Assembly (NCBI RefSeq): GCF_900104615.1
Contig: NZ_LT629939.1
Span: 771,476-835,475, forward strand
Length of the DNA: 64,000 nucleotides
Direction: 5' to 3'
Source of the DNA: Merdimmobilis hominis
GTDB taxonomy: Bacteria; Bacillota; Clostridia; Oscillospirales; Ruminococcaceae
The notes below the pieces were generated by a model, which worked only from the letters and a program-made list of their open reading frames with translations, did no database searches and was not told the origin of the DNA. Below, piece after piece: positions 4,188 to 19,206 of this stretch. The number at the start of each line of letters is the position of its first letter. The first letter of the stretch is position 1. A program made the position numbers and the translations under genes.

Positions 4188-5516
4188 TTACTCTTCGTAC
4201 CGTGTGACACCGGAGCCATCCACCTTCGCGTGGATCAGAGGAGGCACTACCGGTTTTTCCCTCCCGACGGAGAGCGCCGCCAACAAGGTTTTTTCTGCCT
4301 CCCGCGCCTTCTTCCCATCGCCGGTGAGAAGGAGGGCTAAGGGCTCCCCTTCCTCCACCCGGTCGCCGATATTTTTGTAGAGAAGGATGCCGGCGCTGTG
4401 GTCGATGGGGGCGTCTTTGACCTCCCGGCCAGCCCCCAGCATCACTGAGGCAATGCCCACCTGCTGGGTGTTGATGTGGGTGATGTACCCACCCTTAGTG
4501 CAGCGGACCTCATACTCCACTGCCGCCCTGGGGAATTGTTCCGGATGGTCGATGTAGCTGGGGTCTCCCCCTTGGGCCTGTACCATCTCCCGCAATTTTT
4601 CAAGCGCCCGGCCAGAGGACACCGCCTCTTTTACAAGCTCTACGCAGTCCTCATGGCCCCCCTTGCCCGCCAGCTCCAGAAGGCCAGCGGCCAGCTGGGT
4701 GCAGACCTGGGTCAAGTCGGCGGGGCCCATCCCTTGCAAGGTGTGGATGGCCTCCACCACCTCCAGGGAGTTGCCCACCGCGTGGCCCAAAGGACGGTCC
4801 ATGTCGGTGATCAGCGCAGCGGTGGTGCGGCCCACGTGGCTGCCGATCTCCACCATAATCTTGGCCAGGTCGATAGAATCCTCCACCGTCTTCATAAACG
4901 CCCCCGAGCCGGTCTTCACATCCAGGAGGATGCAGTCGGCCCCGGCGGCGATCTTCTTGCTCATGATGCTGGCCGCAATGAGGGGCTTGCTCTCCACCGT
5001 GGCGGTGACATCCCGCAGGGCGTAGAGCTTTTTGTCCGCGGGGGCCAGGTTGCCGGACTGGCCTACCACACAGACCCCCACCTGGTTGACAATGCGGGTG
5101 AACTCCCCCTGATCCATGCTGGTGCGAAGGCCGGGGATGGATTCCATCTTGTCCACGGTGCCGCCGGTGTGGCCCAGGCCCCGGCCGGACATCTTGGCCA
5201 CTGGCACCCCGCAGGAGGCTACAATGGGGGCGATGACCAGGGTGGTCTTATCCCCCACCCCACCGGTGGAGTGTTTATCCACCTTGACCCCCTGGATGGA
5301 GGAGAGGTCCACCACGTCTCCGGAGTGGGCCATGGCGTCGGTGAGGATTGCCGTCTCCTTTGGGTTGAGGCCTCGGAAGTAGATTGCCATCATCATTGCA
5401 GCCAGCTGGTAGTCGGGGATGGAGCCATCCACCACCCCGTCCACCAAAAAACGGATCTCCGTCTCAGTCAGTATACCACCATCCCGTTTCTTCTGGATGA
5501 GATCGTACATGCGCAT
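4188..5516 (-). CDS. pdp: Pyrimidine-nucleoside phosphorylase
   Basis: This 442-residue enzyme cleaves uridine, deoxyuridine or thymidine with phosphate to the free base and (deoxy)ribose 1-phosphate. The anion- and nucleoside-binding signature KHSTGGVGDKTTLV and the loop SGRGLGHTGGTVDK lie around residues 80-125. The C-terminal all-beta domain ends with GEPLALLLTGDGKK. Length and motifs fit the Gram-positive Pdp type rather than longer archaeal forms. ATG 5516 (MRMYDLIQKK) has GGGAGGTG seven bases upstream, while the longer in-frame extension lacks a ribosome binding site. It is the last gene of the bmpA/ABC transporter unit, which gives it imported nucleosides as substrate. Confidence 0.95.
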   Translation of the reverse strand: MRMYDLIQKKRDGGILTETEIRFLVDGVVDGSIPDYQLAAMMMAIYFRGLNPKETAILTDAMAHSGDVVDLSSIQGVKVDKHSTGGVGDKTTLVIAPIVASCGVPVAKMSGRGLGHTGGTVDKMESIPGLRTSMDQGEFTRIVNQVGVCVVGQSGNLAPADKKLYALRDVTATVESKPLIAASIMSKKIAAGADCILLDVKTGSGAFMKTVEDSIDLAKIMVEIGSHVGRTTAALITDMDRPLGHAVGNSLEVVEAIHTLQGMGPADLTQVCTQLAAGLLELAGKGGHEDCVELVKEAVSSGRALEKLREMVQAQGGDPSYIDHPEQFPRAAVEYEVRCTKGGYITHINTQQVGIASVMLGAGREVKDAPIDHSAGILLYKNIGDRVEEGEPLALLLTGDGKKAREAEKTLLAALSVGREKPVVPPLIHAKVDGSGVTRYEE

Positions 5517-5551
5517 GCAAAACACCTCCCAAAAAGTGAAGCAATGAGGAT

Positions 5552-5584
5552 GCCGCCGGGGAGCCAGTGAGGCTCCCCGGCGGC
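5552..5584. other. Perfect 14-bp intergenic hairpin between permease and pdp
   Basis: GCCGCCGGGGAGCC is separated by AGTGA from its exact complement. The T-run lies only on the plus-strand side, so this is not an obvious terminator for the minus-strand operon. It may stabilise or separate the mRNA segments of the permease and pdp. Confidence 0.6.
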
Positions 5585-5605
5585 CTTTTTCGCGTTTCAA
5601 ATTCC

Positions 5606-6535
5606 CTACCGGACACCCTTTTCATAGGGGGTGCCGCTGGCTTTTGGCGCCGCCGAACGTCCCACAAACAACACCAGGACCACAATGGTCAGCACATAGG
5701 GCAACATGGACAGCAGCTGGGGCGGGATGTTGACCGTCCCGCCGCCCAAAAGCACCACCAATGCCTGGGCGAAGCCAAAAAGCAGGCAGGCCAGCACCGA
5801 CCCCTGGGGGGTCCATTTGCCGAAGATCACCGCCGCCAAGGCGATAAATCCGTGGCCGCTGATCACGGTGGGGGAAAAGATGGAAACCACCGCTAAGCTT
5901 TGTGCCGCACCGCCGAACCCGGCCAACACGCCGGAGAGGATCACCGCAATGTACCGGATGCGGTAGACGTTGATGCCCAGGGTATCCGCCGCCGCGGGGT
6001 GTTCCCCCACTGCACGGATGCGCAGGCCCCATTTGGTCTTGTACAGGATAAACCACAAAAGGACCGCAATACCCATAGCAAGAAGGACGGTGATGTCCAC
6101 ATTTAAGTTTCGCAGGATTTGGTTCTCTGTATCCCCCAAAAGCCAGGTAAAGGCTTTGGGCATCTTATTGGGCACCGGCTTGGTCATAGTCGCCCCATCG
6201 AAGAAGATGCGGGAGAGGAAGAGGGCCGCGCCCAAGCCGATAAAATTGAGGGCCACGCCGGAGATCGTCTGGTTGGCCCGGAAGCTGACGCAGGCGATGG
6301 CGTGGAAGAGGGCCAAAAACCCGCCGGCCAACCCAGCGCACAAGAACCCCAGCCAAGGGTTTTGGGAGAAATAACCCACCGCCGCGCCGGTGAAGGCGCC
6401 GATGACCATCATCCCCTCCAGGCCGATGTTGACCACGCCGGAGCGCTCGGACAACACGCCGCCCAAGGAGGTGAAGATCAGCGGGGCGGAGTACATCAGT
6501 GTGATGTTAATTGCCAGAGTCAGTGTGAGAAGCAT
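5606..6535 (-). CDS. Nucleoside ABC transporter permease (second subunit, NupQ/YufQ-like)
   Basis: This 309-residue polytopic permease of the BPD_transp_2 family has TSLGGVLSERSGVVNIGLEGM near the N-terminus, a hallmark of BMP-type nucleoside importers. It has about eight to ten hydrophobic helices and ends in a basic tail. It should form the membrane channel with the permease encoded just upstream. I use ATG 6535 (MLLTLTLAIN), preceded by AGAGAGGGGG, so the gene overlaps the previous permease by 29 bases and is translationally coupled to it. A longer frame starting at 6610 has no support. Its context is bmpA, the ATPase and Pdp, which point to nucleoside uptake. Confidence 0.93.
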   Translation of the reverse strand: MLLTLTLAINITLMYSAPLIFTSLGGVLSERSGVVNIGLEGMMVIGAFTGAAVGYFSQNPWLGFLCAGLAGGFLALFHAIACVSFRANQTISGVALNFIGLGAALFLSRIFFDGATMTKPVPNKMPKAFTWLLGDTENQILRNLNVDITVLLAMGIAVLLWFILYKTKWGLRIRAVGEHPAAADTLGINVYRIRYIAVILSGVLAGFGGAAQSLAVVSIFSPTVISGHGFIALAAVIFGKWTPQGSVLACLLFGFAQALVVLLGGGTVNIPPQLLSMLPYVLTIVVLVLFVGRSAAPKASGTPYEKGVR

Positions 6536-7655
6536 GGCGTTTTCCCCCTCTCTTTGCCAGTTTGTCCGCCAGGACGCGGAACATGGTGGACATCGCAATG
6601 AAGAACACAATGGTGCCGATCACAATGTTGATGACCTCGCTGGGAGCCCCGGTGGTGGACTGGATCGCCGAACCACCGTATTTCAACCCGCCAAACAAAA
6701 GCCCGGAGAAGATGCACCCGATGGGGGAACTGTTGGCGATCAGCGCCACCGAGATGCCGTCGAAGCCATAGCCCTCCTGGGCCGCCAGCATGCTGATGCG
6801 GTGAGGCATGACGCCGGTCATCTGCAAGGCCCCTGCCAGGCCCGCTAAGGCCCCGGCAATAAACATGGAGTGCATGATGTTCCGATTGACGTTGATCCCG
6901 GCGAACCGGGCCGCGTCGCTGTTGAAGCCCACCGACCGCAGTTCAAATCCCTTACAGGTGCGGTTGAGGACGAACCAGACCAGCAACGCCGCCAAAATGG
7001 CGAATAAAATCCCGTAGTTGAGGTCGGTTTTTAACACCACATCCGCCAAGGTGGGGTTGGCCAAAAGAGCCTGCCGCCCCTCCTCAGTGGCCTTGTAGTT
7101 GCCCAGCACCATGGACCAGGCGGAGCGCTGCACCTCGTAGGAAGCTTCCGCTCCCGGTTTTTTCAGCCAGGGCATCTGGATCATAAAATTGTTGAAGTAC
7201 AAGGCGATCCAGTTGAGCATGATGCAGGTGATGACCTCGTTGATGCCGAATTTAGCCTTGAGGAAGCCGGCAAAGCACCCCCACAGCCCAGCGGCCACCA
7301 TGGCGGCCAGAACCACCGCCAAAAAATGGAGAACCGGAGGGAGGCTCAGCTTGGCGCCAACCAGAACGGCGGCCACGCTGCCGATGATGTACTGGCCCTC
7401 TGCCCCAATGTTGAAGAGGCCGGTTTTAAAGGCGAACGCCACCGACAGGCCGGTGAGGATAAGGGGGGTGGATTTGATCACCACCTGGGCCATGTATTTG
7501 GGCTTGGAAAAGATGCCCCGAAACATGGCGGCATAGGCCTCAAGGGGGTTATACCCCGCCACTGAGAGAACCACAGCCCCCACTACAAACCCCAGAACAA
7601 TGGAGATGACGATGGAGGTCAGGGGTTTTTTCAGCCATTTCTGCACAGTGTCCAT
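6507..7655 (-). CDS. Nucleoside ABC transporter permease (first subunit, NupP/YufP-like)
   Basis: This 382-residue permease of the BPD_transp_2 family shows FNIGAEGQYIIGSVAAVLVG around residues 87-106, and a conserved loop EVQRSAWSMVLGNYKATEEG in the middle, typical of the larger permease of BMP-type transporters. It has about ten membrane helices. The ATG at 7655 overlaps the TGA stop of the ATPase gene in a TGATG arrangement. AGGAGGTGG supplies the ribosome binding site. A GTG one codon earlier is possible but too close to the site. It forms the transmembrane heterodimer with the following gene. Confidence 0.93.
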   Translation of the reverse strand: MDTVQKWLKKPLTSIVISIVLGFVVGAVVLSVAGYNPLEAYAAMFRGIFSKPKYMAQVVIKSTPLILTGLSVAFAFKTGLFNIGAEGQYIIGSVAAVLVGAKLSLPPVLHFLAVVLAAMVAAGLWGCFAGFLKAKFGINEVITCIMLNWIALYFNNFMIQMPWLKKPGAEASYEVQRSAWSMVLGNYKATEEGRQALLANPTLADVVLKTDLNYGILFAILAALLVWFVLNRTCKGFELRSVGFNSDAARFAGINVNRNIMHSMFIAGALAGLAGALQMTGVMPHRISMLAAQEGYGFDGISVALIANSSPIGCIFSGLLFGGLKYGGSAIQSTTGAPSEVINIVIGTIVFFIAMSTMFRVLADKLAKRGGKRHASHTDSGN

Positions 7656-9184
7656 CACTTTCCACCTCCTGCCATTTTCAGCCCGATTTCGTTTTCATCT
7701 GCTCCTTTGGCGTCAATGACATCCACAATGGAGCCGTCATAGATGATGGCGATGCGGTCGGAGAGGTCGATGACCTCATCCAGCTCCAGGGAGATGAGCA
7801 GCACCGCTTTGCCTTTGTCCCTCTGTTCCACCAACGACCGGTGGACATACTCGATGGCGCCCACGTCCAGGCCCCGGGTGGGCTGTACTGCGATGAGTAG
7901 GTCAGGGTCGTTGGTCACCTCCCGGCCAATGATCACCTTCTGCTGGTTGCCGCCGGAAAGGCCGCGGGCCAATTGCCCTTCACAGCCGGTGGGCCGCACA
8001 TCGAACTTTTCAATCAGCTCCTTAGCGAATTTGTTGATCGCGCCCAGTTGGAGCACCCCTTTTTTGGAAAAGGGCGCCTTGTGGTAATTTTCCAGCACCA
8101 TATTCTCCGCCACAGTGAAATCCAGCACCAAACCGTGTTTGTGACGGTCTTCGGGGATGGTGGAAATCTTGTGGTTGATGGTGTTCAGGGGGGTGGTGTT
8201 CTGAATCTCCTGCCCCAGAATGGAAATGGTACCGCCCTTGGCTTTCACCAGGTTGGTAATGGCCTCCACCAGTTCTTTCTGGCCATTTCCATCGATGCCA
8301 GCCACGCCCAGAATTTCCCCCCGGCGCACCGAGAGGGATAGGTTTTTAACCTTGTCGATCCCCCGGCTGTCGGAGACAGTCAGCCCTTCTATCCGGAAGA
8401 TTTCCTCCCCCGGGTGGGCCTCCCCTTTTTCAATGTGCAGGTTGACTGCCCGGCCCACCATTTTGGAGGCCAGTTCCTCCTCGGTGGTATCGGACACTTT
8501 CACCGTGTCGATATACTGCCCCCGGCGGATGATGGTGCACCAATCGGAGGACTGCTTGATCTCCCCCAGCTTGTGGGTGATGATGATGATGGTTTTCCCA
8601 TCTGCCACCAGCTTGTGCATAATCTCAATCAGCTCGTGGATCTCCTGGGGGGTGAGGACGGCGGTGGGCTCATCCAAAATAAGGATGTCCACCCCGCGGT
8701 AGAGGGCCTTGAGGATCTCCACCCTCTGCTGCATCCCCACCGAAATGTCCTCTATTTTCTCGTCAGGGTCCACCAAGAGGCCGTATTTCTCGCTCAGTTC
8801 CAAAATCTCCTGCCGGACCGCCTTGGTGTCAATGGTGCCCAAAGCACCGGTTTTCTCACTGCCCAGGATGATGTTCTGGGCTACGGTAAAGGGTTCCACC
8901 AACATAAAGTGCTGGTGTACCATGCCGATGCCCAGCTCAATTGCTTTGTTAGGACTGGTGATCTGCGCCGGTTTTCCGTTGATGAGGATTTCGCCCTCCT
9001 CCGCCTGGTAAAGGCCGTATAACACATTCATCAAGGTGGATTTACCCGCTCCATTTTCCCCCAACAGGGCGTGGACGGTGCCTTTTTGAACCTCCAAATC
9101 CACCTGGTCAAGGGCGCAGAACGAGCCGAAGTATTTTGAGATGCCTTTCATCTGTACCGCATAACGGTTCGCATCCTGCTCCAA
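7655..9184 (-). CDS. Nucleoside ABC transporter ATP-binding protein, two-domain (NupO/YufO-like)
   Basis: This 509-residue ATPase has two fused nucleotide-binding domains. The first (residues 1-245) has Walker A GENGAGKST, signature SVGMQQR and Walker B ILILDEPTAVL. The second (255-505) has a degenerate Walker A GIDGNGQKE and signature GLSGGNQQK. This layout is that of sugar/nucleoside importers of the RbsA class. The start is a TTG preceded by GGAGGAGGAATCAAT. No ATG in frame gives a complete N-terminal domain. A terminator separates it from bmpA upstream, so the transporter core is probably made at a lower level than the binding protein. Confidence 0.94.
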   Translation of the reverse strand: MEQDANRYAVQMKGISKYFGSFCALDQVDLEVQKGTVHALLGENGAGKSTLMNVLYGLYQAEEGEILINGKPAQITSPNKAIELGIGMVHQHFMLVEPFTVAQNIILGSEKTGALGTIDTKAVRQEILELSEKYGLLVDPDEKIEDISVGMQQRVEILKALYRGVDILILDEPTAVLTPQEIHELIEIMHKLVADGKTIIIITHKLGEIKQSSDWCTIIRRGQYIDTVKVSDTTEEELASKMVGRAVNLHIEKGEAHPGEEIFRIEGLTVSDSRGIDKVKNLSLSVRRGEILGVAGIDGNGQKELVEAITNLVKAKGGTISILGQEIQNTTPLNTINHKISTIPEDRHKHGLVLDFTVAENMVLENYHKAPFSKKGVLQLGAINKFAKELIEKFDVRPTGCEGQLARGLSGGNQQKVIIGREVTNDPDLLIAVQPTRGLDVGAIEYVHRSLVEQRDKGKAVLLISLELDEVIDLSDRIAIIYDGSIVDVIDAKGADENEIGLKMAGGGK

Positions 9185-13245: not shown

Positions 13246-14508
13246 CTATTTTAAATCGTAGGTTCCCTCTGGGTCGTATAGGATATAGCTGTTGAGCCCA
13301 TTGTCCCGCAAAGCCCGCAACTGCTCCTCTACCTGGGCCCGGCCATAGGGTTCGCCGGCCAGCCAGGAGGCGGTGTAATCCTGTAGGATGGCGATAGTCC
13401 CCGCCTGAGGCCCTATGTGCTCCAAGAGGAAATTGACGATCTCATAGGGCTTTTGCACCGGGTTTTCGATCCGCTCCTCCCCCAGCTGGAACCAAGCGCC
13501 CAGCATGGCGGGGGACAGGTCGATGACCCCACGGTCCCGGATCAGCGCTGCCGGGTCCTCCCCGTAAGCGTCGCCGGTGAGCATGGTGCCGGAGAACACC
13601 TGGACCAGCACCCGGCAATCGCGGCCTGCTAGCCGTTCGCTCACCCGGTCAGCAAACTGGGTGAGCACCTCCTGCCGGCTTCTGCCGCCGGTGTCCCCAT
13701 AGGTGGCCAACTCCAAGCTGTAGCCGGTGGGGAACTGGACCGAATCCAGGATGATGATCTCAAATCCCTTTTCCGCCGCTTCATAAGCGATGTCGGAGAT
13801 ATAGTTTTGGGCATCCAGGCTATAAGGGTTGAGCCAGGGCTTCCCCCCGTTCTGCAGGGAATTGTCAATCCAGTTGGTCTGGGTGCCCTGGTATTTCACC
13901 GCGCTGTCCGCCATGGAGCGGGGGGCGGTCTTGTCTTGGAAAGCGGACACCCGGCCGATGGGGGTATAGCCCCGGTCCTTGAGCTTTTTCACCAGCCAGG
14001 CCGCATCCACAGCCTGTTCCGATTGGGCGCCGTTTGCCGCCACCTGTTCCAAGCTGCTTTGGTAATGGACCACGCCATTGGCATCCTTCAAATCCACCAG
14101 TACTGCGTTGATATCCGACCCCTGGAGGCTGTCCAAAAACCGGTCTGCGAGCAGGTCGCTCTGCTGGTAGGCGGCGGGCATATACACCCCACGGATCTCC
14201 CCCAGCACCGTCACTGGGGGATGGTTTTCCTCTGGCTGGGAGGAGCTCCCCTCTTCCGGCTGGGATTCCTGGGGCAAGGGTTCCGGGGTTTCCGGAGCGC
14301 TCTGAGACTGGGTAGGCTGTTGGGAAGGCTCCAGCGTAAGCCCCATGATAAAATTGTATACAGGGGTGTACAAAAGCCAACCCAACCCGGCTACTACCGC
14401 CAACAGGACGACCACCAATGCCGTCTCCGGCAGGGTTGCCCTCCGATTGCGGCCGCGGCCGCTCCAGTTGATTTTTTGATGCCGTTTGATCTTCTGGGGT
14501 TTTGCCAT
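13246..14508 (-). CDS. Membrane-anchored putative glycoside hydrolase-like TIM-barrel protein (DUF4015 type)
   Basis: This protein of about 420 residues begins with a basic cytoplasmic stretch (KPQKIKRHQKINWSGRGRNRR). It continues with one membrane segment (about 30-50), a Ser/Pro/Glu/Gln-rich linker (70-105), and a barrel-like domain starting GEIRGVYMPAAYQQ. Later motifs include NAVLVDLKDANGVV, GYTPIGRVSAFQDKTAP and GFEIIILDSVQFPTG, which follow the order of beta strands in DUF4015 putative glycoside hydrolases. The activity of that family is not well established. ATG 14508 has GGAGGTGG upstream. It is the last gene of the Rnf-like operon, 24 bases after rnfA. That placement is unexplained. 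Confidence 0.75.
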   Translation of the reverse strand: MAKPQKIKRHQKINWSGRGRNRRATLPETALVVVLLAVVAGLGWLLYTPVYNFIMGLTLEPSQQPTQSQSAPETPEPLPQESQPEEGSSSQPEENHPPVTVLGEIRGVYMPAAYQQSDLLADRFLDSLQGSDINAVLVDLKDANGVVHYQSSLEQVAANGAQSEQAVDAAWLVKKLKDRGYTPIGRVSAFQDKTAPRSMADSAVKYQGTQTNWIDNSLQNGGKPWLNPYSLDAQNYISDIAYEAAEKGFEIIILDSVQFPTGYSLELATYGDTGGRSRQEVLTQFADRVSERLAGRDCRVLVQVFSGTMLTGDAYGEDPAALIRDRGVIDLSPAMLGAWFQLGEERIENPVQKPYEIVNFLLEHIGPQAGTIAILQDYTASWLAGEPYGRAQVEEQLRALRDNGLNSYILYDPEGTYDLK

Positions 14509-14532
14509 GGAACCTTCCACCTCCAGTCTTGG

Positions 14533-15123
14533 TTATGCGGGGAGCTGATGGCCAATCAGCCCGTAGATGGACAGGCTGATGATGCCGATATACACCAGAA
14601 GGATGGGCAGCCCTCTAAACACTTTGGGAATGTCCATCATCTGGAATTGTTCTTGGGCGATGTAGAGAAGCAGGAGGGCGCCGGTGTACCCGATGCCGGA
14701 ACCCAAGCCAAAGCCGATCCAACCGCCCAGGCTGTACCGCTCAGAGGCAGCCACCAGGAGAGCCCCAAAAGCCGCGCTGTTGAAGGCTGCGCGGGAGAGT
14801 TCCCCCTGATATTGGGCGAGGAGACCCGGCGCCTTTTTGGCGAGTCCGGCATAGCTTCCAAAATAGAGTATGCAGATACAGAGCAAAAATGCGATGCTTC
14901 TTACATACAGGGGCAGCCCGAAGGGTTTTAGCAGGGTGTCCACCGCCCAGCACAACACGCTGGATAAGGTGGTGATGCCGGTGACCAGCGCCCCGAACAC
15001 CACCAAATCCTGGGGGGCGGACTCCCCCAGATGGAACGGCCCCAAACCGCGGGCAAAGACCACGTTTTCCAGGGCAATGGCCGTCAGCGCGGCCACAAAA
15101 AAATCAGCGAGCAGTTGCAACAT
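14533..15123 (-). CDS. RnfA/NqrE-like membrane subunit lacking the iron-sulfur cysteines
   Basis: This 196-residue protein has six membrane helices and aligns end to end with RnfA/RsxA (about 193 residues). It shares ALENVVFARGLGPF for the first half-helix and FRGLPILLVYIGIISLSIYG at the end. In canonical RnfA two cysteines, one in LGLCPF and one in TTNCAVLG, hold half of a [2Fe-2S] cluster shared with RnfE. Here the first is deleted (GLG-PF) and the second is Ser (FNSAAFG). The family fold is clear, but electron transfer by the usual route looks impossible. It follows rnfE by three bases. Confidence 0.82.
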   Translation of the reverse strand: MLQLLADFFVAALTAIALENVVFARGLGPFHLGESAPQDLVVFGALVTGITTLSSVLCWAVDTLLKPFGLPLYVRSIAFLLCICILYFGSYAGLAKKAPGLLAQYQGELSRAAFNSAAFGALLVAASERYSLGGWIGFGLGSGIGYTGALLLLYIAQEQFQMMDIPKVFRGLPILLVYIGIISLSIYGLIGHQLPA

Positions 15124-15126
15124 GGC

Positions 15127-15819
15127 CTATCCCTCCTTTGCAGCGGGCCGCGGCCGGCGGCGTTTGGGGGGCGGGGCGGCCTCCCGGTTTTCTCGAACAA
15201 TATAAAATTGCTTAATCAGCCGGTCTGCCCAGCGGAAAAAGGCGGAGAGAAACCCCACCACAAGGAATCCAAAAAAGGGCAGTAGCAATCCGCCGGACGT
15301 AAAGGGGACCGGGACTGCTTTCCCCCACAGGGTGCCAGAACCAAACAGCTCCCGGAAAGCAGACAGAGGCACCGCCACCACCGCAAATCCTAGGGATTGC
15401 ATCGCCCCGTCCAAAAGGGCATACTGGGGTTTGACCTGGGGCGCGTATTGCATAGCGCGGGTGATCATCAGGGAGTTGACCGCCAGCAAGGGGAAGTAAA
15501 TCCCCATGGAGTCGAAGATGCTGGGACTGATGTACCGGATGAACAGGGCCGCAACCTGTAAGGCTGCCATAGCGGTGACAACGCATGCCGGCATCCGGGC
15601 CATCTTGGGGATTTGGGGGCTGAACACACAGGCCACCCACATGGCGGGCACCATAGAGCAGAACATGGCCAGAGAGAGGGCCACCCCGCTCCGCAGGCTG
15701 GTCGTACCCATGATGGCGATGGGAAGGGCCAGGCCGCACAGGAGTACCGGGTTCTCCGATAGCACCCCACGGGTCAGGGCCATGGCATCCCTATGCCTTC
15801 TGAGATTTGTCAGTTTCAA
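15127..15819 (-). CDS. RnfE/NqrD-like membrane subunit lacking the iron-sulfur cysteines
   Basis: This protein of about 230 residues matches RnfE/RsxE. It has SENPVLLCGLALPIAIMGTT in the first half-helix, YFPLLAVNSLMITRAMQYA in the second, and AFRELFGSGTLWG in the loop before the last helices. In canonical RnfE the Cys of GLCP and the Cys of TNC bind the [2Fe-2S] cluster. Here they are Leu (GLALP) and Ser (VNS). A different Cys lies four residues before the first site. The C-terminus is long and basic (PPPKRRRPRPAAKEG). The start is TTG 15819 with GGAAGGAGG upstream, giving a 29-base overlap with rnfD. Confidence 0.82.
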   Translation of the reverse strand: MKLTNLRRHRDAMALTRGVLSENPVLLCGLALPIAIMGTTSLRSGVALSLAMFCSMVPAMWVACVFSPQIPKMARMPACVVTAMAALQVAALFIRYISPSIFDSMGIYFPLLAVNSLMITRAMQYAPQVKPQYALLDGAMQSLGFAVVAVPLSAFRELFGSGTLWGKAVPVPFTSGGLLLPFFGFLVVGFLSAFFRWADRLIKQFYIVRENREAAPPPKRRRPRPAAKEG

Positions 15820-16783
15820 CGCGGCGCCTCCTTCCCTCGCTGTGGATGGATTCATTTTTCAGGTCGATGGCAAAGGAGAAGGCGTTCATCAGCAAAATGG
15901 CGAACACCGCCGTCTCCTCGTAGCCCCCCGCCCGGCGGAAAAGCATAGCCGCCACGCCGCAGAGCACCCCGTAAAAAATTTTGGAGGTCTCCCGTTTGGG
16001 GGTGGTGGCCGGGTCGTTCAGCAGGAACACCGCTGTCAGCAGCAGACTGCCGCTGGTCAGCTCCATCAGGATGGACTGGACCGCCCCCATTCCCGACCGG
16101 GGCAGCACCAAGGCAAACACGGCCGACGCCCCCAAAAAGGCAAGGGCCGGCTTGATGTCGATGACATTGATCAGCGCAAGGCATATCAGACAGGCAATCA
16201 AAAGTAAGATGTTAGTGGCTCCCATAGAGCCGGGCATGCTGCCCAGGAAAATCTCCATGGTGCTGAATTTGGGAATCCCCCCCAGCTGAAGCGTCTGGGC
16301 GGCGGACTGGGCCGCTTTCACCGTGAGGACTGGGTCAAGGGCCAGCTTTCCCATAGGGGCAGGGTAAGTGAACATTGCCACTGGGAAACAAACTGTGGCA
16401 AAGGCGATGCCCGCCGCAGCCGGGTTAAAGATATTCTGCCCCAAACCGCCGAAGGGATGCTTGGCCACTGCAATGGCGAACACCCCTGCCGCAACCACAA
16501 TCCAATAACTGATGGAGGCAGGCATAAACAAGGGGATCAACATGCCGGTGACTATGCTGGAATAATCCCACAGGCAGATTTTCCGCCCTGCCAGCCGGGT
16601 GCAGAGCAGGTCGGTCGCCAGGCAGGTGACCACCGAAAGAACCCCCAGAACCAAAGCGCGCATGCCGTAGAAGAAGGTCCCCATAAAATAGAGGGACCCC
16701 AGGGCGCAGATCACATAGAACATCACCGTGGCATTGCTGTCCTGGGAACGGATGTGGGGCGGGCTACTGGGCATCAGTTTCAT
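15791..16783 (-). CDS. RnfD/NqrB-like membrane subunit with covalent-FMN motif
   Basis: This 330-residue protein has nine to ten membrane helices. The N-terminal SPPHIRSQDSNATVMFYVI, the central HPFGGLGQNIFNPAAAG (about 109-125) and PGSMGATN (184-191) are RnfD hallmarks. Thr190 sits where RnfD carries FMN in phosphoester linkage, so this subunit probably is flavinylated. That needs an ApbE-type transferase, which is not in the window. The late motif FLLNDPATTPKRETSK corresponds to the conserved TDP-TSP loop. ATG 16783 has AGGAGGTCACCT upstream and overlaps the rnfC end by 20 bases. Confidence 0.88.
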   Translation of the reverse strand: MKLMPSSPPHIRSQDSNATVMFYVICALGSLYFMGTFFYGMRALVLGVLSVVTCLATDLLCTRLAGRKICLWDYSSIVTGMLIPLFMPASISYWIVVAAGVFAIAVAKHPFGGLGQNIFNPAAAGIAFATVCFPVAMFTYPAPMGKLALDPVLTVKAAQSAAQTLQLGGIPKFSTMEIFLGSMPGSMGATNILLLIACLICLALINVIDIKPALAFLGASAVFALVLPRSGMGAVQSILMELTSGSLLLTAVFLLNDPATTPKRETSKIFYGVLCGVAAMLFRRAGGYEETAVFAILLMNAFSFAIDLKNESIHSEGRRRRVETDKSQKA

Positions 16784-17831
16784 AGGTGACCTCCTTCCCC
16801 GCCTTGGCGAGCCGTTCCACTTTTCCGGTGAAAATGATGGTGGAAAGGTCCAGCTTGGCCGGGCAGACATAGCTGCAAGTCCCGCAGCCGATGCAGCGCT
16901 CCAGGTCAAACCGGTCGATGTACTTCATCTTTTTGCGGGTGATAAACTGGTAGAGATAATAGGGTGAAAGTCCCTGAGGGCAGACCTTGGTGCAGCGGCC
17001 GCAGCCGATGCAGGTGTACCCCACATGCTTGCTGTACTCCCGGAAGGCGATGAGCCCCCGGGTGGTGGGGCCCACCAAAGTTTTCTCCGGGTCCAGCACG
17101 CCGTAGCCCATCATCGAACCACCGGCGACGATCCGGGTGGGGTTCTGGGCCAGGCCGCACCGCTCCAGAAGCTGCATAGCTGTCATGCCGATGGTGACTT
17201 CCAGGTTCATTGGGTTGGCGATGCAGTTGCCGGCCACCGTGACAAAACAAGTATCCTGTTTCCGGTTTTGGTAAACGGCCCGCCAAAGGTGAATCATAGC
17301 GCAGGCCCCCAGCAGCAGGGTGTTTTTATCCTGCAACTGTCGGTTCGCCCGGTATTCCGCAGGGTAGCCCCCGGTGATCCGGTGGACGGGGAGTCCAGCG
17401 ATCTCCTGGGGGATTTTGGTTTCCACATCCATCAGGTGCTTATAAATGGCCACAAAGCTCTCCTGGGCGCCCAGGGCTTTTTGAGCCAGGCGCGCCCCTC
17501 CCGCCATTTGATCCCCCAGCTGGATGGCTGGGCAGAGCTGGCTGGAGATATAGGGCTCGTCGTCGATGGCATCCACTGCCAGGACGGAAATTCCCTGGCT
17601 TCTGCCCTGCCGGAGCTTCTCCCACAGCGGCATGCCGTCAGATTCATCGATGATGCCCGCCTCCTTGGCGATGGTGATGATCTCCTCTGCGGTCAGGGCA
17701 TCGGGGTCGGCAGCTGGTTCCCGCTCCATCAAAGCCGATGGGCCTGGGCTGGTAAATTCCTGCAAATTCCGGGAAAGAGCTGGCTCTTTATGCTGTTCCA
17801 ACACGATTCCACGGGTAAAAATATCTTCCAC
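16764..17831 (-). CDS. RnfC-like subunit, N-terminally short, with two [4Fe-4S] motifs
   Basis: This protein of about 355 residues ends with two cluster motifs, CIGCGRCTKVCP and CIGCGTCSYVCP, as in RnfC. Ahead of them, RIVAGGSMMGYGVLDPE matches the RnfC loop GGPMMG. Canonical RnfC starts with a GGxHP barrel-sandwich region and a GGAGFPT/NGAECEPYLT flavin- and NADH-binding module. Here the first is missing, and the second reads IDESDGMPLWEKL and DAIDDEPYISSQL, so NADH oxidation by the usual site is doubtful. The start is GTG 17831 with AAAGGGGGAG nine bases upstream. A frame open to 17873 has no ribosome binding site. It is the first gene of the operon. Confidence 0.82.
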   Translation of the reverse strand: MEDIFTRGIVLEQHKEPALSRNLQEFTSPGPSALMEREPAADPDALTAEEIITIAKEAGIIDESDGMPLWEKLRQGRSQGISVLAVDAIDDEPYISSQLCPAIQLGDQMAGGARLAQKALGAQESFVAIYKHLMDVETKIPQEIAGLPVHRITGGYPAEYRANRQLQDKNTLLLGACAMIHLWRAVYQNRKQDTCFVTVAGNCIANPMNLEVTIGMTAMQLLERCGLAQNPTRIVAGGSMMGYGVLDPEKTLVGPTTRGLIAFREYSKHVGYTCIGCGRCTKVCPQGLSPYYLYQFITRKKMKYIDRFDLERCIGCGTCSYVCPAKLDLSTIIFTGKVERLAKAGKEVTYETDAQ

Positions 17832-17918: not shown

Positions 17919-18494
17919 ATGTATTTTGAGCGCCTAGACGGCAACAAACTGCGGGTGCGGCTCACCGCGGAGGACCTGGAGGAATTCCTGGTCACCTACG
18001 ACGGGATGGACTATGCCGATTCCGCCACCCGCATGATGGTCAGCGAGATCCTGAGCCGCGCCCGGCTGGAGTGCGGCTTTACCCCTGGGGATGGGCGGCT
18101 TCTCATCGAGGCCTATCCCGGCGAGGAGGATGGCTGCACCCTCCTCTTTACCGCCGTTCCCCCTCCCGGACGCCCTGCTCTGGGGAAAGGGGGGTTCGGC
18201 CCCCTGGTCTACGCCTTCGAGGACATCGACACGGTGATCGACGGGTCGGTTAGGCTGTTCCGGCTGTGCTGCCACCGGATTTATAAAAGTTCCCTGTACC
18301 GAATGGACAAGGGCTACCGGATGATTCTCTACCCCTTGGACCGCACCGGCTCCCGGGCCTCCACCCTGCTGGCTGAATACGGCGAACTGGCCGGGGAAGG
18401 CCCCGCCGCCGCCGCTGTGGTGGAAGAACACGGCGCACCGGTCATCCTGGGCAATGCCATTGACAAACTCTCTTATTATTTTGCCCGGGGATAG
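17919..18494 (+). CDS. mecA: Adaptor protein MecA-like
   Basis: This 191-residue protein has the MecA architecture. The N-terminal domain is FERLDGNKLRVRLTAEDLEE, followed by an acidic middle and a C-terminal ClpC-binding-like domain containing LVYAFEDIDTVIDGSVRLF. MecA proteins bring substrates to the ClpCP protease, for instance competence regulators in Bacillus. The actual clients here are unknown. ATG 17919 is preceded by GGAAGGTGGTTGGG. The gene is divergent from rnfC with 87 bases between them, and its last 19 bases overlap the end of the converging rpe gene. Confidence 0.88.
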   Translation: MYFERLDGNKLRVRLTAEDLEEFLVTYDGMDYADSATRMMVSEILSRARLECGFTPGDGRLLIEAYPGEEDGCTLLFTAVPPPGRPALGKGGFGPLVYAFEDIDTVIDGSVRLFRLCCHRIYKSSLYRMDKGYRMILYPLDRTGSRASTLLAEYGELAGEGPAAAAVVEEHGAPVILGNAIDKLSYYFARG

Positions 18495-19150
18495 GCCGCC
18501 TGAGCGCTCTCCCGGATGGCGGCCACTGCCTGCCGGTAGTCGGGTTTGCCAAACACCGCCGACCCAGCCACCAGCACATTTGCCCCATTTTGGGCCACAA
18601 TGGCAGCGGTTTCCCCATTGATTCCACCGTCCACCTGGATGTCCATGGAAAGGCCGCGGGCATCACACTCCCTGCGGATGGCGTTAACTTTGGGCATCAT
18701 GTCCCCCATAAAGCTCTGGCCGCCGAAACCGGGCTCCACGGTCATCACCAGAACCAGGTCCACCTGGTCCAGGTATGGGAAAGCCGCCTGGGCCGGGGTT
18801 CCCGGTTTCAGGGCGATGCCCACCTTTTTGCCCAGCCCCTTGATGGCCGCAATGGTCTTGTCCGGGTCGCTGTCGCTCTCCAGGTGGAATACAATGAGGT
18901 CGGCGCCGGCTTTGGCGAAGTCCTCTGCATACCGCAGGGGGTCGCTGATCATCAGGTGGACATCATAGAAGGCGGGAACTGCCTTGGATAAGCACTTGAG
19001 GATGGGCGCACCCAGGGTCAGGTTGGGGACGAAGTGGCCATCCATCACGTCGATGTGAAGCATGTCCGCCCCAGCGTCCACAATGGCCTTCGCCTCGTCG
19101 GCCATATGGGCAAAGTCACAGGATAGCATGGAGGGGGAAATCTGTATCAT
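18476..19150 (-). CDS. rpe: Ribulose-phosphate 3-epimerase
   Basis: This 224-residue TIM-barrel enzyme interconverts ribulose 5-phosphate and xylulose 5-phosphate. SPSMLSCDFAHMADE opens the barrel, LHIDVMDGHFVPNLTLG carries metal ligands His and Asp, and VMTVEPGFGGQSFM and IQVDGGINGETA complete the metal and phosphate sites. The length is typical. ATG 19150 has CAGGAG upstream, while a TTG further out has none. A TTGACC-17-TAAAAT promoter precedes it. The 3' end overlaps mecA on the other strand. Confidence 0.96.
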   Translation of the reverse strand: MIQISPSMLSCDFAHMADEAKAIVDAGADMLHIDVMDGHFVPNLTLGAPILKCLSKAVPAFYDVHLMISDPLRYAEDFAKAGADLIVFHLESDSDPDKTIAAIKGLGKKVGIALKPGTPAQAAFPYLDQVDLVLVMTVEPGFGGQSFMGDMMPKVNAIRRECDARGLSMDIQVDGGINGETAAIVAQNGANVLVAGSAVFGKPDYRQAVAAIRESAQAAYPRAK

Positions 19151-19206
19151 AAAAACGTCTCCTGTCAAATAAAATACTGGCCGCAGCGCAGATTTAGACG
19201 CATACT

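Follow-up and report, generated by a model that had tools for sequence, protein, structure and literature searches.

The stretch of the Merdimmobilis hominis genome considered here (64,000 nt of contig NZ_LT629939.1, positions 771,476 to 835,475; the window) carries a five-gene operon (13246-17831, minus strand) related to the genes for Rnf, an ancient redox-driven ion pump in which the coupling of electron transfer to ion movement is still debated. The genes stand in the order C-D-E-A, followed by a gene for a TIM-barrel protein of the DUF4015 family and a terminator-like hairpin. Judged by its sequences, this reduced set is an old paralogue of Rnf that has been kept and is not decaying.

The first gene encodes an RnfC-like subunit of 355 amino acids (16764-17831); its GTG start at 17831 is read from the sequence, in which a ribosome-binding-like AAAGGGGGAG lies upstream, and from relatives. 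It is followed by genes for an RnfD-like subunit (330 amino acids, 15791-16783), an RnfE-like subunit (230 amino acids, 15127-15819, with a probable TTG start at 15819 chosen from the sequence and relatives), an RnfA-like subunit (196 amino acids, 14533-15123) and the DUF4015 protein (420 amino acids, 13246-14508, with a probable ATG start at 14508 chosen from the sequence). The hairpin (13239-13214), an intrinsic-terminator candidate by consensus match, stands on the same strand just 3' of the DUF4015 gene and has nine pairs, all G-C, and then a run of T. The genes overlap or nearly abut, and there is no space for RnfB or RnfG between C, D, E, and A. Pfam and NCBIfam assign the products as RnfC-, RnfD-, RnfE- and RnfA-like proteins and DUF4015, with the Rnf NCBIfam models matching below their curated cut-offs; homologues of the membrane subunits RnfA, RnfD, and RnfE and of the peripheral RnfC are present by family assignment and, for D, by structure model. 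An earlier reading of the window from its letters (the original prediction) had given the same gene order, with RnfB and RnfG missing from among the genes, and layout and families bear it out.

The reduced operon is regarded as a paralogue because a complete Rnf is encoded elsewhere in the window genome. Of the four Rnf-Nqr membrane genes found in this genome, two are canonical and two belong to the reduced operon. The canonical locus has the order ApbE, small membrane protein, C, D, G, E, A, B, in which ApbE and G were identified by family searches and B was recognised by eye as a polyferredoxin; it is the second, complete rnfCDGEAB operon whose possible existence the original prediction had raised. 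RnfB and RnfG, both absent from the reduced operon, are encoded there; the original prediction would have been weakened by such genes elsewhere with the same expression, and for the window genome the first half of this holds. A family search of the window genome found no FMN_bind outside the complete rnf operon. That the reduced set borrows these subunits is unlikely, because three genomes (G101, G067, and G086) have reduced genes without a canonical-scoring RnfA/E or a second RnfD. The canonical RnfG of the window genome has two FMN_bind domains in one 316-amino-acid protein (L037 8081-9031).

The four cysteines of the intramembrane [2Fe-2S] cluster are missing from the reduced A and E proteins. 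In the window, the cysteine positions are taken by Phe and Ser in A and by Pro (Leu if the next Pro is aligned instead) and Ser in E; the original prediction was right that neither pair is present, but A has Phe where a deletion had been described, and the residue called Leu in E may be Pro. None of the 58 reduced A/E sets has at least three of the four cysteine positions filled within two residues on either side, while all four are filled in 15 of 16 canonical sets (L186 is included with the reduced sets and L193 with the canonical ones, and the counts cover loci with the subunit in the fetched stretch). At the exact positions, reduced proteins have the first A cysteine in 0/57, the second A cysteine in 27/57, the first E cysteine in 1/58, and the second in 0/58; within two residues the first A cysteine is again not found (0/58), and the two E positions are filled in 3 and 6 of 58. 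The ion-pair network described for Acetobacterium woodii Rnf includes RnfA E88 and RnfE E115 (PMC11889175); E88 is present in 1 of 57 reduced A proteins and E115 in 26 of 58 reduced E proteins. Relatives that are roughly 27-53% identical repeat these losses, which is more than chance would give. One other genome has at locus L111 (G228:C9, 7387-12850) a second rnf set with all six genes (C, D, G, E, A, and B, of which G and B were assigned by eye). In its E protein Gly replaces the second cluster cysteine, and in its A protein the first cysteine is shifted; this set is possibly an intermediate form.

These losses also bear on the idea that the reduced C, D, E, and A are alternative subunits, which swap into the complete Rnf and alter its activity. 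The two sets usually coexist, in that 101 of 148 genomes of the family have at least three Rnf-Nqr genes, canonical-scoring ones included. However, 15 of the 148 have only reduced-type genes, among them G067, G086, and G101, which are at least 90% complete and have a single D, and the missing first cysteine of A and the rarity of the E cysteines would break a mixed cluster; such swapping is very unlikely.

In RnfD of A. woodii, T156 is the site of covalent flavin mononucleotide (FMN), and N123 and D249 are riboflavin ligands (PMC11889175). When these residues are placed by motif on canonical proteins, the FMN threonine maps to the canonical ATPLA motif, for which the window protein has Ala-Gln-Ser-Ala-Ala (Ser-Ala-Ala within the motif), with loss of the threonine. 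Ala followed by Ser or Thr is found at this site in 2/60 reduced and 15/15 canonical D proteins. The original prediction held that D keeps the FMN threonine; the residue in question, T190 of a GAT motif, aligns with canonical GET, which rules out GAT as the FMN site proper and leaves Ser-Ala-Ala as its true counterpart, although a flavin on another threonine is still conceivable. The riboflavin ligands are, by sequence, retained as N120 and the Asp of NDPATTP in the window protein; Asn together with Asp or Glu is found in 36 of 38 reduced rows with C and in 13 of 22 without it. The model of D (predicted local distance difference test score, pLDDT, 86) has the RnfD fold (TMq about 0.8 to 8ahx, 9eri, and 7zc6), with solved RnfD structures as best matches, followed by NqrB and then urea transporters.

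Were T190 a new flavin site, the set could export electrons, passing them by way of this threonine to an acceptor outside the cell, with the DUF4015 protein as the outside partner. A threonine at this position is present in 35 of 38 C-bearing and 17 of 22 C-less reduced rows, compared with 9 of 15 canonical proteins; reduced rows in which the site ends in GAT number 32 of 60, and the canonical FMN site itself ends in GAT or GAS in 4 of 15 proteins. ApbE, moreover, is found in 126 of the 148 family genomes. Electron export is nevertheless improbable. The Asp that stands six residues ahead of the canonical FMN site (15/15) is found ahead of GAT in 1/60, ApbE already has another substrate in canonical Rnf, and no redox family matched DUF4015 in the Pfam/NCBIfam scan. 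Further, three genomes that are at least 90% complete and have D but no canonical Rnf (G101, G067, and G086) gave no ApbE match. T190 is lost from G101 and G067 and kept in G086, a weak association between absence of ApbE and loss of the threonine (other genomes without ApbE are mostly incomplete).

Two CxxCxxCxxxC [4Fe-4S] motifs are present in every reduced C protein (38/38), as the original prediction had stated for the window. The N-terminal domain of the window protein is gone; the rnfC profile match begins at profile position 106, and PF13375 had no match among the 17 C proteins scanned, that of the window included (19 families matched, E 0.01). The NADH/FMN site is lost as well: the GGxGFPT motif is found in 0/38 reduced proteins (9/15 canonical by the same pattern) and ECEPY in 0/38 (15/15 canonical). 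The predicted absence of the N-terminal domain and of GGAGFPT thus stands; the NGAECEPYLT segment, said to be absent too, is altered and still present in the window protein (DAIDDEPYISSQ). An acidic [DE][DE][DEQ]P motif occurs in 34 of 38 reduced C proteins and in no canonical one.

The reduced set is widespread in the family. Matches to the A protein, canonical ones included, were found in 137 of 148 genomes; in addition to the 101 genomes mentioned above, some of which may hold two canonical-like pairs, 21 have canonical Rnf-Nqr genes only, 15 have only weakly scoring reduced-type genes, and 11 have none. A second D in two of the 15 (G021 and G036) points to a canonical set that is probably just unassembled. 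Loci were fetched from 39 of the 136 other matching genomes, a non-random choice made up mostly of the best-scoring matches and some lower ones; among these, D-E-A are in order on one strand in 39/39, DUF4015 is next in 38/39, and C is ahead in 24/39. Two further families of the order carry the set: f5 has C-D-E-A without DUF4015 in the fetched stretch at seven loci, and D-E-A-DUF4015 at another (L187); f79 has C-D-E-A-DUF4015 (L181). Outside the order, no reduced D was found in a 398-genome sample of the phylum (best outside match 257.8 bits; the two reduced copies inside the sample scored 460 and 345 bits), and very divergent copies could have been missed, because a similar profile gave the weakest reduced D a score of 277. 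In a class-wide search with the A profile, the reduced copies of other families could not be told apart from canonical genes.

A tree of 75 D proteins, made by a quick method and leaving out L197 (a duplicate of L074), L189, L186, and L193, places 59 reduced proteins behind one long branch (SH-aLRT 100, length 0.97), and L181 joins them at support 80. The separate clade that the original prediction anticipated is thereby found, and the membrane module may derive from an rnf operon duplicated in an ancestor within the order. One genome of the family, G039, has six Rnf-Nqr membrane genes, namely two canonical-scoring pairs and one weakly scoring pair. A different reduced set, from the same order, lies at locus L189 (G473:C12:260000-276000, about 4750-8650). 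It comprises an ApbE-like gene, C, D, and G (assigned by eye, and for C and D by profile), its NADH and FMN motifs look canonical, and the fetched stretch contains neither E nor A nor B; this looks like the opposite half of Rnf, from NADH to the outside.

Conservation on this scale leaves little room for error or decay. An assembly or frameshift artefact is ruled out because the same pattern recurs in other genomes. The frameshifts in related strains that would have counted against the original prediction were not found: all A matches above 60 bits are free of stops among the matches listed, and a reduced D flagged with an internal stop (in G037) proved on fetching to be an intact gene of 325 amino acids. 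A decaying or nonfunctional duplicate would account for the many lost redox sites, but it is already contradicted by the intact frames, by a gene order conserved across genera at about 27-53% identity, by strict retention of selected motifs, and by upkeep of the set in very small genomes, and is hardly credible. The view in the original prediction that the set is under selection is upheld on the same evidence of frames, order, and motifs.

C is not a constant member of the set: in 22 of 60 reduced rows there is no C next to D. A profile search of these 22 genomes, six of which are less than 90% complete, found no reduced-type C elsewhere in them (best match 183 bits, canonical-like), and five C-bearing control genomes were found by the profile at 408 bits or more. 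Supported branches of the tree force at least three changes of state in the presence of C (losses, or loss and regain), and one C-bearing locus (L069) nests in the main C-less clade. In two genomes, of 0.7 and 0.9 Mb (97% complete), D, E, and A persist at three different sites, with one D each and without C, and no canonical-scoring Rnf-Nqr gene and no ApbE match were found in them; two of the sites in G067 lie on one contig, about 170 kb apart. Retention of D and E alone in the tiny genomes had been considered and was rejected, the profile search having found A too. In G101 (1.0 Mb, 94% complete), C-D-E lie on one contig and A on another, and this genome likewise has no ApbE match and no canonical set.

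The inconstancy of C weighs against the set being a new oxidoreductase, in which electrons would pass from a cytosolic donor through both clusters in C and then riboflavin in D to an acceptor in the membrane (a quinone, another lipid-soluble compound, or a small molecule), with E and A as structural parts. The [4Fe-4S] motifs of all 38 C proteins, the riboflavin ligands in 36 of 38 rows, and the RnfD fold of D, by sequence and model, would all suit such an enzyme, and there is a precedent in Na+-NQR, which is described as passing electrons straight to ubiquinone in the membrane (PMC12174285). But C is absent from 22 of 60 rows and from elsewhere in those genomes, D, E, and A are retained without it in tiny genomes, and DUF4015 would be left unexplained; we therefore consider a new oxidoreductase unlikely.

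The DUF4015 protein matches its family (PF13200) at 158.8 bits (cut-off 27). Its model (pLDDT 84.5; models were built from a longer frame starting at 14520) has one helix (30-58), a low-complexity linker of low confidence, and a TIM barrel. The closest solved folds to the barrel are the uncharacterised Cthe_0052, the functional region of Cwp19 (GHL10), and the C-terminal domain of PgaB, which acts on poly-GlcNAc. The comparison gives a Z of 23.1 for Cwp19 (root-mean-square deviation 3.4, 281 residues aligned) and 22.8 for PgaB (3.5, 290 residues aligned), and by these best structural matches the barrel appears to share a glycan-acting fold with the two proteins, a likeness of fold that does not by itself establish an activity. 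Cwp19 is a peptidoglycan lytic transglycosylase (PMC6016235). The DUF4015 protein differs from both in its Pfam family, in its N-terminal helix, and in a candidate acidic residue that is not kept in all members; the position is acidic in 22/29 C-bearing and 6/18 C-less members, uncorrected for kinship, and a catalytic role for it would be a guess. On the model, DUF4015 is probably a cell-surface glycan-handling protein, with its barrel most likely outside the cell.

In the C-less reduced set at L186 (G582:C22), a secreted lipoprotein (5418-6191), another partner of envelope type, lies between D and E; we take it to resemble a CAP-domain protein. In both tiny genomes, A is followed in the place of DUF4015 by a lipoprotein-like protein of about 480 amino acids (L208 3264-4727 and L209 8131-9567). 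These two proteins are 30% identical to each other and have a weak FG-GAP match; profile comparison gave no relation to DUF4015. On the 5' side of the window operon, there are a MecA-family gene, on the opposite strand, and a ribulose-phosphate 3-epimerase gene (17934-19168), and both are long-kept neighbours, the epimerase cluster being found in 23 of 41 loci and the MecA-family cluster in 17. An aldo/keto reductase with a ferredoxin-type domain is encoded near the operon in 10 of 41 loci (L046 14343-15530 and relatives) and is a possible electron source for C.

The reading that we prefer, although we hold it at somewhat less than an even chance, is that the D-E-A scaffold has an envelope or transport job that is gated by a short cytosolic redox arm. 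The known Rnf route is closed, since the set has neither B nor G, no [2Fe-2S] cluster, no FMN site on D, and no NADH/FMN motifs in C, and the suggestion in the original prediction that the set is possibly not an NADH:ferredoxin pump gains support from these losses. The D-E-A scaffold would be the part kept by selection, and together with DUF4015 it may move or handle something at the membrane in a cell-envelope task. In the C-bearing form, a short electron arm on the cytoplasmic side would consist of two [4Fe-4S] clusters in C and riboflavin in D, if their sites are occupied, and would gate or power the module from a cytosolic donor; in the C-less form the riboflavin site would be relaxed and the scaffold would work without riboflavin. 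A transport or envelope task with redox as an optional input is favoured because C and the redox sites have been lost repeatedly. The original prediction had spoken of another redox or transport task, and on balance the losses favour the latter, or an envelope task. Composition, losses, retained motifs, and distribution are read directly from sequence, whereas cofactor occupancy, DUF4015 topology, the transport or envelope role, and gating belong to the model that we infer.

Several observations weigh against a gated envelope or transport module. The strict retention of the [4Fe-4S] motifs wherever C is present is no less compatible with a true redox enzyme than with gating, the conserved T190 of D could be a new flavin site, and the complete Rnf in the window genome could lend subunits. 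The association between loss of C and loss of the riboflavin ligands (Fisher p 0.001) is not significant on the tree, where there are 3 independent pairs, and for this reason remains a lead and not a result. DUF4015 is missing in L075 and several f5 loci, and in the two tiny genomes it was not seen next to any of D, E, and A, no genome-wide search for it having been made there; it is consequently not a universal partner.

A bolder form of the envelope or transport reading, which is doubtful although it should be taken seriously, is that the D-E-A core of Rnf now serves as a transporter or envelope machine without redox function, in partnership with a surface glycan-handling protein, and is kept in genomes of 0.7-0.9 Mb independently of Rnf. 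In this form the carriers would have been lost stepwise: first B and G together with the [2Fe-2S] cluster and the FMN site, later C and riboflavin. In either form the set is a natural and widely kept version of Rnf without the known transmembrane electron path, which could show what the scaffold alone can do, and it is a ready-made counterpart for structural work on Rnf. It also calls for care in annotation: four of its five genes look like rnf genes, and genomes with the reduced set only (G101, G067, and G086) risk being falsely credited with Rnf energy conservation.

Searches of open-licence literature, which excludes subscription papers, gave no title or abstract on a C-D-E-A-DUF4015 set, so that a description may exist elsewhere, and DUF4015 was found in that literature in one paper, in a supporting-figure legend. 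The nearest relative of the set is Rnf itself (rnfCDGEAB; RsxCDGEAB). As in Rnf, homologues of C, D, E, and A follow one another in this succession, C carries two [4Fe-4S] motifs, and D has the riboflavin ligands and the RnfD fold. The set differs from Rnf in having no B, no G, no set of cluster cysteines, and no FMN threonine on D, in a C that is without the NADH/FMN motifs and the N-terminal domain and that is gone in some relatives, and in the extra DUF4015 gene. The NQR/RNF-like flavinylation systems, as described, consist of two subunits, a D-like protein fused to an NAD-binding domain and an FMN_bind protein (PMC8238504; preprint PMC10979944). They resemble the reduced set in being reduced, in being based on RnfD/NqrB, and in the unconserved covalent FMN site of the D-like subunit; the operon differs from them in having C, E, and A and in having no FMN_bind or NAD-binding domain, its D matching PF03116 only (without the PF00175 fusion) and having no FMN_bind neighbour. 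Na+-NQR (nqrABCDEF) has been described as a neofunctionalised duplicate of the rnf operon that lost rnfB (PMC4014512), and this origin is similar to that proposed here. The operon has neither an FMN_bind gene nor an NAD-binding gene, and thus no NqrC or NqrF, and its C, with two cluster motifs, is not a cluster-free NqrA. Na+-NQR is reported to share the transmembrane electron path with Rnf, to have gained NqrF, and to have an NqrA without redox cofactors (PMC12174285). The reduced set has the opposite pattern, in which the [4Fe-4S] motifs of C are kept and the transmembrane path is gone.

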